From Chitinophagaceae bacterium (GTDB lineage: Bacteria > Bacteroidota > Bacteroidia > Chitinophagales > Chitinophagaceae): a DNA stretch of 37,675 bases. Shown here in pieces: positions 21,546 to 25,611 of this stretch; position 1 is the stretch's first letter, and each line of letters opens with the position of its first letter. Under the pieces are notes generated by a model, which ran no database searches, had not been told where the DNA came from, and was given only the letters and a program-made list of their open reading frames with translations. The stretch covers positions 1-37,675 of the forward strand of contig CANFGZ010000003.1 of NCBI GenBank assembly GCA_947446585.1, written 5' to 3'. The position numbers and the translations under genes are program-made.

Positions 21546-24239
21546 TTACTCCAAAATTGGTCTCAACCACTTTGTAGCTTCTTCAATACTCATCCCTTTT
21601 CTTTTTGCATAATCTTCCAGCTGATCTTGTTCAATTTTTCCTACACCAAAATATTTGCTTTCGGGATTTGCAAAATACCATCCACAAACTGATGATGCAG
21701 GATACATGGCAAGAGACTCTGTAAGATGAATGCCAGTTGCTGCTTCGCCACCGAGCAATGCAAACAATTTATATTTTTCGGTGTGATCCGGACAAGCAGG
21801 ATAACCGGGCGCCGGGCGAATGCCCGAATAGTCTTCGCTGATTAATTGTTCTGTAGACAACTGTTCATCAATTGCATATCCCCAAAATTCTTTTCGGGTT
21901 TTATGATGCAATAATTCTGCAAATGCTTCTGCAAGTCTGTCGGCAAGAGCTTGTAATATAATTTTATTATAATCATCAAGCTTTTCTTCAAATATTTTTA
22001 TATGTTTTTCAATACCTTGTATGGTTACAGAAAATGCGCCCAAATAATCAATGCGATTGGGATGTATAAAATCAGCTAATGATAAATTAGGCTGTCCCTC
22101 TGCTTTTTTTATTTGTTGTCTTAAAAATTCAAGATGGACATTTTTATTTTCATGCTTCACCAAAATACTATCTGGTGCTGTTTTAGAAACTTCCCAAAAA
22201 CCAACTACTCCTTTTGCGGTGAGCCAGTTTTCTTCAATGATTTGTTTTAACAATTGTTGTGCATCCTTGTATAATTTTGAGGCTTCCTCTCCAATAACAG
22301 TATCAGTAAGTATTGCAGGAAATTTTCCATGCATCTCCCAGGCAATGAAGAAAGGCTGCCAATCGATATAGGTAGCAATTTCTGCCAGCGAGTAATTTTC
22401 TAATTCTTTAGTTCCGGTAAACTTAGGTGTTATAGGATTATATTCCTTCCAGTTTAATGATGCATTTTTTTTCTGTGCCTGTTCAAAAGGCAGTAATTGT
22501 TTGGATGATTTTTTATTTCCAAAATCCAGTTTAAGTTTATCATACTCTGATGTTATGTCAGAAAGAAAATTAATTTTCTGGTCTTTATTTAATAAACTAC
22601 CGGCAACAGTTACACTTCTTGAAGCGTCTAGCACATGCACAACACCTTCTTCATATTCGGGAGCAATTTTTACTGCAGTATGCATTCTGCTGGTAGTGGC
22701 GCCACCAATTAATAATGGAATGTTCATTTTCAGGCGCTTCATTTCTCTGGCAATATGCACCATTTCATCCAAAGAAGGTGTGATTAAACCACTCAATCCA
22801 ATGATATCAACATTATGTTTTCTAGCTTCCGTTAAAATTTTATCTGCAGAAACCATTACGCCAAGATCAATAATTTCATATCCATTACAACCGAGCACGA
22901 CACCAACGATGTTTTTACCAATATCATGTACGTCGCCTTTTACAGTGGCTAATAAAATTTTAGCAGGACCTTTTTCTTCTACAGCATTGGTATTGTTTAA
23001 TTTTCTGTCTGCTTTTTCTTGTTCAATATACGGTGTAAGAACAGCTACTGCTTTTTTCATTACGCGTGCGCTTTTCACAACCTGAGGTAAAAACATTTTT
23101 CCGGCGCCAAATAAATCACCTACAATGTTCATACCTGCCATCAACGGACCTTCAATAACATCCAATGGTTTTGGATATTTCAATCTCGCTTCTTCGGTGT
23201 CGGTGTCGATATATTCTGTAATACCATGCACCAAAGCATGTTCCATTCTTTTTTCTACAGATTCATTTCTCCAGCTTTCATCTTTTACGGTTTCCTTTCC
23301 TTTGGCTTTTACGGTTTCAGCAAATGCAATTAATCTTTCTGTGGCACCATTGTCATCATTGTTTTTATTAAGGATGACTTCTTCACATAGCTGTTTTAAA
23401 TTGGGTTCTATTTCATCGTAAATTACTAATTGACCTGCATTTACAATGCCCATATCCATTCCAGCTTTTATAGCATGAAATAGGAATACACTATGAATAG
23501 CTTCTCTAACGTGATCGTTTCCTCTGAAAGAAAAAGAAACATTGCTAACGCCACCACTAATCTTAGTTAGAGGCATTAATTTTTTTATCTCTCTTGTAGC
23601 TTCAATAAAATCAACTGCATAATTATTGTGTTCTTCGATACCTGTTGCAATGGCAAAGATGTTGGGATCGAAAATGATATCTTCGGGTGCAAAGCCAACT
23701 TGTGCTGTCAAAATTTTATATGCCCTGTAACAGATTTCAATCTTTCTTTCTTTGGTATCTGCTTGTCCTACTTCATCAAATGCCATTACAATAACTGCAG
23801 CTCCAAAGTTTTTACAGATAATTGCCTGCTCAATAAATTTTTGTTCGCCTTCCTTCATGGAAATCGAATTCACAATACATTTTCCCTGTACACATTTCAA
23901 TCCGGCTTCAATGATTTCGAACTTGCTACTATCAATCATAATCGGAATGCGTGCGATATCAGGTTCTGATTGAACCAAATTTAAAAAGGTAGTCATCGCT
24001 GTCACGCCGTCCAATAAGGCGTCATCCATATTCACATCAATTACCTGTGCACCGCTTTCTACTTGCTGACGCGCTACAGATAAAGCTTCTTCGTAAAGTC
24101 CTTCTCTGATTAGCCTGGCAAATTTCTTACTGCCGGTTACGTTGGTACGTTCACCAACATTCACAAAATTTGTTTCCGGACGAACGATGAGTGGTTCGAG
24201 GCCGCTGAGTCGGAGATAAGGTTGTATGTGTTGTGTCAT
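21546..24239 (-). CDS. metH: Methionine synthase, pterin-binding, B12-binding and activation modules
   Basis: [37 protein letters not shown] (B12 DxHxxG), [15 protein letters not shown]; lacks Hcy domain. Confidence 0.96.
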
Positions 24240-24249
24240 AATTAATAAT

Positions 24250-24344
24250 GTTTGGAAGGTTCAAGAGGTTCAATGAGTTTAAAAGGTTGGTTGAACCTGT
24301 TGAACTCCTGCCTGCCGGCAGGTAGGTATTGAACCTTTTAAACT
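24250..24344. repeat. Intergenic palindromic repeat element between the two methionine synthase genes
   Basis: AGTTTAAAAGGTT (24276-24288) / AACCTTTTAAACT (24332-24344) perfect 13-bp inverted repeat enclosing CCTGCCTGCCGGCAGGTAGG (24307-24326). Confidence 0.85.
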
Positions 24345-25350
24345 AAGAACTTGTAATTGGCAATTCCCTCGGCTTATACTTACGCACTTCATCTGCAATA
24401 TGCTTAATATGATCCGGTGTGGTACCACAGCAACCTCCTACTATATTTAAAAATCCTTGTTTCGCCCACTCTTCAACGATATGAGCCGTTTCGTGTGGCT
24501 GTTCATCATATTCCCCAAATGCATTCGGCAACCCTGCATTTGGGTAAGCAGAAGTAAAACATTTTGCAATGGAAGACAACTCTTCAATATGTGGTCTCAT
24601 TTCGCTTGCACCTAATGCACAATTTAATCCAATGCTGAGTGGATTAGCATGAACAACAGAAATATAAAATGCTTCAAGTGTTTGGCCGCTTAAGGTTCTG
24701 CCACTGGCATCGGTTATAGTGCCACTAATCATAATCGGGAGTTCCGCAATTTTGTTTATTCCAAAAAAGTTCTTTATTGCATAAATGGCTGCTTTTGCAT
24801 TCAATGTATCAAAAATGGTTTCCACCAGTAAAATATCAACTCCGCCATCCACAAGCCCTTTCACCTGTTCTTCATAGGCAGCTACCACTTCATCAAATGT
24901 TACCGCTCTGTAACCAGGATTATTTACGTCGGGGGAAAGTGATAATGTTTTGTTTAATGGACCAATGGCACCGGCAACAAATCTTGGCTTATCTGGATTA
25001 TTTTTCGTGTATTCGTCTGCGGCAGTACGGGCACAATTTGCAGAAGCTACATTTAATTCATAAGCTAAAGACTGCATATCATAATCTGCCTGAGCAATTG
25101 TAGTGCTGCTAAATGTATTGGTTTCAATAATATCAGCGCCAGCTTCCAGATATTGTTTATGAATAGCGATGATTATTTCCGGCTGAGTAATACTTAATAA
25201 ATCATTATTCCCTTTTACATCTTTATGCCATGATTTAAAACGATCGCCACGATAATCTTCTTCTTCCAATTTATAACGTTGTATCATAGTACCCATAGCT
25301 CCGTCTATGATGAGAATACGCTGTTTGAGAACTTCTTTTATGTCTGCCAT
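24343..25350 (-). CDS. Homocysteine S-methyltransferase module of methionine synthase
   Basis: [13 protein letters not shown]...[11 protein letters not shown]...[17 protein letters not shown]; MetH N-terminal module. Confidence 0.95.
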
Positions 25351-25432: not shown

Positions 25433-25511
25433 TTATTATTTGTTTGTTGGTAAAATTGAAAAGCTGATAAACGTCTTGCAAATCCGTAGAAATGTGAAGG
25501 AGTTGTAGGTC

Positions 25512-25576
25512 GTTTATTAGTTCAATAATTTACCAAGTTGCAGGGGTTGAACAATAAACAAATCCTCACCTGCAAC
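25512..25576 (-). ncRNA. Candidate H-type pseudoknot leader RNA (cis-regulatory?)
   Basis: Minus-strand order GTTGCAGG - tgaggattt - GTTTATTGTTCAA - cc - CCTGCAAC - ttggtaaatta - TTGAACTAATAAAC: two interleaved complementary pairs (8 bp perfect; 13 bp with one bulged T). Confidence 0.5.
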
Positions 25577-25581
25577 GGATG

Positions 25582-25611
25582 CAAATATATAATAAGATAG
25601 GGTTATCACAA
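25582..25611 (-). promoter_or_regulatory. Bacteroidota-type promoter TTG-N19-TATATTTG upstream of the pseudoknot leader
   Basis: Minus strand TTG tgataaccctatcttatta TATATTTG; predicted start falls about 5 nt downstream, at the first pseudoknot strand. Confidence 0.65.

Follow-up and report, generated by a model that had tools for sequence, protein, structure and literature searches.

The leader of metH on the DNA analysed here was found to carry a conserved bistable cis-regulatory RNA that is absent from Rfam 15. The DNA, hereafter the window, is the whole stretch of 37,675 nucleotides from a Chitinophagaceae bacterium (contig CANFGZ010000003.1). As judged from sequence comparison, the element is very probably a riboswitch, and it is read here, with middling confidence, as a variant H-type pseudoknot riboswitch for metH, for which we infer the ligand (SAM or a relative), the sign (OFF when stem P2 is formed) and the output step. 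If this reading is correct, most of the genera sampled in a large bacterial family would possess a riboswitch dedicated to metH that Rfam 15 does not record.

Layout and pairing of the element

In 107 distinct relatives, the element follows the order P1a - GAUUU - GUUUAUUGUUC - P1b - linker - GAACUAAUAAACG. In the window, the element and its gene comprise the following features.

25582-25589, minus strand: promoter -7 element TATATTTG, Bacteroidota-type, predicted from sequence
25569-25576, minus strand: P1a GTTGCAGG, 5' strand of stem P1, 5 nt after TATATTTG
25560-25564, minus strand: loop 1, GATTT (GAUUU), counterpart of SAM-II G8-U12 and putative third strand of a triplex
25549-25559, minus strand: P2a GTTTATTGTTC (RNA GUUUAUUGUUC), 5' arm of P2, the pseudoknot stem
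25537-25544, minus strand: P1b CCTGCAAC, 3' strand of the covarying stem P1
25523-25512, minus strand: P2b GAACTAATAAAC, with a bulged T at 25519
25511-25523, minus strand: P2b as RNA, GAACUAAUAAACG, shared by P2 (as its 3' strand) and P3 (as its 5' strand)
25516, minus strand: U in P2b, at the A47-equivalent position
25461-25473, minus strand: 3' strand of P3, CGUUUA (25473-25468) and AGCUU (25465-25461), competing for P2b
24343-25350, minus strand: first part of metH, homocysteine S-methyltransferase domain (PF02574, E 1.5e-103)
21546-24239, minus strand: second part of metH, pterin-binding, B12-binding and activation domains (PF00809, PF02607, PF02310, PF02965)

All four strands of the interleaved arrangement P1a-P2a-P1b-P2b, as proposed on the minus strand in the initial annotation, are present at their places, and the leader of about 225 nt expected before the Hcy-methyltransferase ATG measures 226 nt from P1a to the metH ATG (25350). 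The eight perfect pairs described for P1 were recovered, and the register common to the relatives adds one more, G25567-C25546, across a T-C mismatch. The -7 assignment is accompanied by the occurrence of TAnnTTTG at most 60 nt upstream in 101 of the 107 copies, mostly 13-19 nt 5' of the UUUG core.

The fold of the leader beats 200 of 200 shuffles (z -3.0), and among 2000 dinucleotide-shuffled leaders seven contained an interleaved pair of 8-bp and 11-bp stems, with one bulge allowed. Conservation was decisive in judging the pairing real, as 107 distinct relatives carry the element, all of them (107/107) directly before metH, with P1 covarying; the element thus withstood the check in related genomes that had been proposed for it. 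The pairing is real and above chance, and its conservation lies far beyond expectation. In a MAFFT alignment of 35 sequences, the joint covariation score of P1 and P2 exceeded that of 500 of 500 shuffles and was carried by P1. In a model-based alignment of 100 copies, for which P1 and P3 but not P2 had guided the fit, eight of the nine P1 pairs were changed on both sides, and the P1 covariation score was reached by none of 500 shuffles.

Stem P2 is mostly invariant, with 99.5% of cells being standard pairs and with compensatory changes confined, apart from wobbles, to two diverged copies, in each of which a U-A pair has become A-U (the fourth pair in L200, the second in L195); this invariance is partly due to selection, as the motif used for the final collection allowed little change in the core, and the first 50 copies were reached via the gene and not the motif. 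In loop 1, the UUU of GAUUU is invariant, and its G and A are present in 105 and 104 of the 107 copies, respectively.

The arrangement in the initial annotation held for P1 and P2 and missed a second partner of P2b, CGTTTA at 25473-25468. This downstream CGUUUA is the complement of UAAACG, the 3' half of P2b, giving a hairpin, P3, that is paired in 91.6% of cells, with three of seven pairs changed on both sides and with a covariation score that none of 500 shuffles matched. Because the downstream CGUUUA is conserved and covaries, P2 and P3 are taken to compete for a single strand, P2b. In L185, a C-G pair of P3 has become U-A, while the matching P2 pair becomes C-U. The energies calculated for the window are near balance (P2 duplex -8.6 vs P3 hairpin -9.0 kcal/mol). 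An H-type pseudoknot and a bistable switch had been offered as alternatives, and both descriptions apply, with P2 and P3 sharing P2b and with P1 and P3 covarying. CGUUUA is often followed by AGUUC or AGUUU, either of which can pair with GAACU, and in this the P3 strand resembles P2a. GGATTTG is also repeated at 25485-25479, just 5' of the P3 strand CGTTTA, and a similar GGA lies 5' of CGTTT in 30 leaders; by sequence, the aptamer segment GGATTTG-GTTTA seems to be partly copied on the 3' side of P3.

Distribution

Of 59 genomes of the host genus, 55 yielded homologues of the downstream gene, and each of the 50 upstream regions read contains the core GATTTGTTTATTGTTC ... GAACTAATAAACG, with a slight change in two. 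The exact pattern GTTTATTGTTCN{8,38}GAACTAATAAA was present in 176 of 297 host-family genomes, representing 74 of 104 genera, and its reversed control gave no matches in host-family genomes. Among 48 host-family genomes without the exact pattern, 20 possess a variant or longer-linker copy before metH; in several other pattern-negative genomes of the family metH seemingly has almost no leader, and in one (G090) a SAM-I riboswitch precedes metH instead. Across the host order, 25 of 35 host-family genomes matched, whereas 21 other families (164 genomes) gave no match, and in a phylum-scale model search 13 of 13 matches fell inside the host family, both searches being of a kind that would miss strongly diverged copies. 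The type of promoter and the neighbouring families point to Bacteroidota as the taxon, probably to Chitinophagaceae. Each genome yielded one match, except for G106, whose two copies are identical in sequence, the second possibly being an assembly duplicate. Weak reverse-strand matches of model R1 (at most 31 bits) fit the self-complementarity of P2b with both its partners.

Comparison with known riboswitches

No Rfam family reached its gathering score in the window, and at E values up to 10 only chance-like matches (miRNA, snoRNA and similar) were obtained; a known Rfam family was rejected, with no match in the window, the leader or 18 relatives. SAM-II models were not among the matches at E up to 10 for the leader and 18 relatives, the SAM-II family model gave no genome matches over its cut-off in 20 genomes, and covariance models of SAM-II and of the element did not recognise each other. 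A literature search, made without most subscription journals, found no description of the element.

The element is nonetheless laid out like SAM-II and SAM-V. With SAM-II (RF00521) it shares an H-type pseudoknot of P1 and P2, a single bulged U in P2b and a position before methionine or SAM genes, and it differs in its 11-bp P2, its competing hairpin P3, one core pair and one further core letter. SAM-II fully conserves U10-U12, U20, U21, G22, C23, G42, C43 and U44-A47 (PMC3764141). Ten of these 13 invariants (U10, U11, U12, U20, U21, G22, C43, U44, A45 and A46) are kept in 107 of 107 copies, whereas the C23-G42 pair is U-A in all copies and A47, which reads the amino and carboxyl groups at the methionine end of SAM, is replaced by U in 107 of 107. 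The GATTTG following P1a, which had been considered reminiscent of SAM-II, is indeed the counterpart of SAM-II G8-U12, and its GAUUU is likely, by analogy with SAM-II (PMC3764141), to provide the third strand of a triplex in loop 1. The SAM-II hallmark was described as absent; CUAA with a bulged U at the U44 position does lie opposite UUG, as in SAM-II, and the departures are at the next letter (A47) and the C23-G42 pair. With shuffled bases, a loose pocket signature arose in 0.7% and a strict one in 5e-6 of trials, figures that are flattering because the signature was chosen post hoc. The likeness may reflect common descent or convergence.

SAM-II_long_loops (RF01726; PMC2864571), which occurs in the same class as the element, likewise has an H-type pseudoknot, with (A/G)AUUUG, AUUG and CUAA plus a bulged U in the same order. 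In the element, however, replacements are seen at A47 and in the GC pair under the bulge, the upper and lower parts of P2 differ from those of RF01726 copies, which come from other families, and the two models show no cross-recognition. RF01726 was absent from the host family in the sample, and it and the element exclude each other by family. SAM-V shares the bulged U, two U:A.U triples and a matchable A18-type position, whereas its aminoacyl reader, A50, is U in the element; A50, equivalent to A47, binds the aminoacyl group, and inosine at this position severely reduced binding (PMC6061858). SAM-V hides the Shine-Dalgarno sequence in P2a, whereas in the element only start-adjacent copies come close to this, over the start codon; in 104 of 107 copies, 50-210 nt separate P2b from the downstream start codon. 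As defining features of SAM-II and SAM-V were tested and found to differ in this way, the element was not filed as a member of either. A divergent SAM-II-like RNA or a new element had been suggested, and the combination of SAM-II-like features with no Rfam match agrees with this.

The SAH riboswitch contains a pseudoknot and controls metH in other bacteria with ON logic; it shares no recognised sequence with the element, which gave no Rfam match. In related families and in one host-family genus, the corresponding position upstream of metH is taken by SAM-I (RF00162), and control of metH by SAM is thus usual in related bacteria. The SAM-I fold is unrelated, and in the host family SAM-I serves other methionine genes and has canonical terminators. 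SAM-I was found in 161 of 199 host-family genomes, and the loci examined there precede metY-, metB- and homoserine dehydrogenase-like genes, named from sequence alone; no SAM-I match was obtained in the window's own genome (88% complete).

Proposed mechanism and alternatives

The element has the general layout of a riboswitch, i.e. a conserved aptamer and a mutually exclusive alternative in the leader of a metabolic gene. The aptamer would consist of P1, the loop GAUUU and P2, whose core (UUG opposite CUAA, the bulged U and the third-strand UUU) agrees with most of the SAM-II/SAM-V pocket. P2 would be held by a ligand, most likely SAM or a closely related adenosyl compound, without which P2b would swap to the downstream CGUUUA to form P3. 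With P2 formed, metH is most likely OFF, a sign that rests on three copies (L200, L113 and L118) in which the start codon lies at most 11 nt from P2b, P3 is absent and P2 would cover the start codon.

The U at A47 in every copy, taken with the importance of A50 for SAM binding in SAM-V, argues against SAM as the ligand. A riboswitch that keeps this frame but has ceased to sense SAM, and responds instead to another MetH-relevant ligand (SAH, MTA, homocysteine, folate or cobamide), possibly with ON logic, is accordingly entertained as a tentative alternative; SAM-I already serves other methionine genes in most of these genomes, and SAM-I variants that switched ligand to spermidine provide a precedent for an altered pocket (PMC10853860). 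Against it, the uracils facing the SAM sulfonium and the adenine-reading bulged U are kept, and related metH genes are under SAM-I. Equally tentative is the proposal of a new riboswitch class restricted to one family, with a SAM-II/V-like triplex pocket, a replaced amino-acid reader, a non-SAM ligand and a P2/P3 strand swap without an intrinsic terminator. More than 100 natural sequences have U fixed at this position and otherwise keep the core, which makes the part played by A47/A50 in the SAM-II/V pocket directly testable.

The AU-rich composition and similar stability of P2 and P3, together with the single gene target, would also suit a structured leader without a small-molecule ligand, in which an RNA-binding protein or temperature shifts the P2/P3 balance. 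This is rather unlikely, given that loop and core letters are near-invariant beyond the needs of pairing and are arranged as in a known metabolite pocket.

Intrinsic termination does not appear to be the output step in the long-leader copies. Were P3 a terminator and P2 an antiterminator, the ligand would switch metH ON, a scheme that draws on the conservation of P3 and on the enrichment of T-runs 3' of it (43 of 101 leaders vs 17 of 119 control windows). It is disfavoured and regarded as improbable, since canonical intrinsic terminators were found in one of 104 long leaders vs 10 of 12 leaders with SAM-I in this family; moreover, the T-run sits away from the P3 stem, and P3 is missing in three copies. 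Many leaders with a T-run continue into a dispersed repeat, of which the T-run may be the edge. The segment between P2b and P3 is rich in C (32%) and poor in G (11%), which, speculatively, would suit Rho loading when P3 is unformed.

A DNA operator for a transcription factor, suggested by the near-perfect dyad and almost fixed sequence of the P2 arms, is highly improbable and disfavoured by an arm spacing of 10 to 70 nt around a covarying P1, by the location of the site downstream of the promoter and by the existence of a third complementary strand.

Further observations on metH loci

The RNA control of metH differs among related bacteria, with SAM-I, the element or none seen. In the window (21546-25350), MetH is divided between two proteins, one for homocysteine methyltransferase and the other for the pterin/B12/activation part; open frames of 1218-1274 aa, as for unsplit MetH, occur in G386, G413, G421, G504, G508 and G524. 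A short ATG frame of some kind is present in 38 leaders. The dispersed repeat, CGTTGTGTCACTCACTT, was seen between P3 and the metH start in L011, L017, L019, L021, L023 and others; it was not found in the window's own genome, and most searched members of the genus that carry it at metH have 5-27 copies, with 105 in G061. G154 has two metH homologues, one (of L203 and L182) with the element and the other, a 703-aa frame, with a SAM-I-like leader recognised by pattern only. At L137, a SAM-I riboswitch upstream of metH is followed by an opposite-strand Flavo-1 RNA (1062-1171 and 1278-1354).
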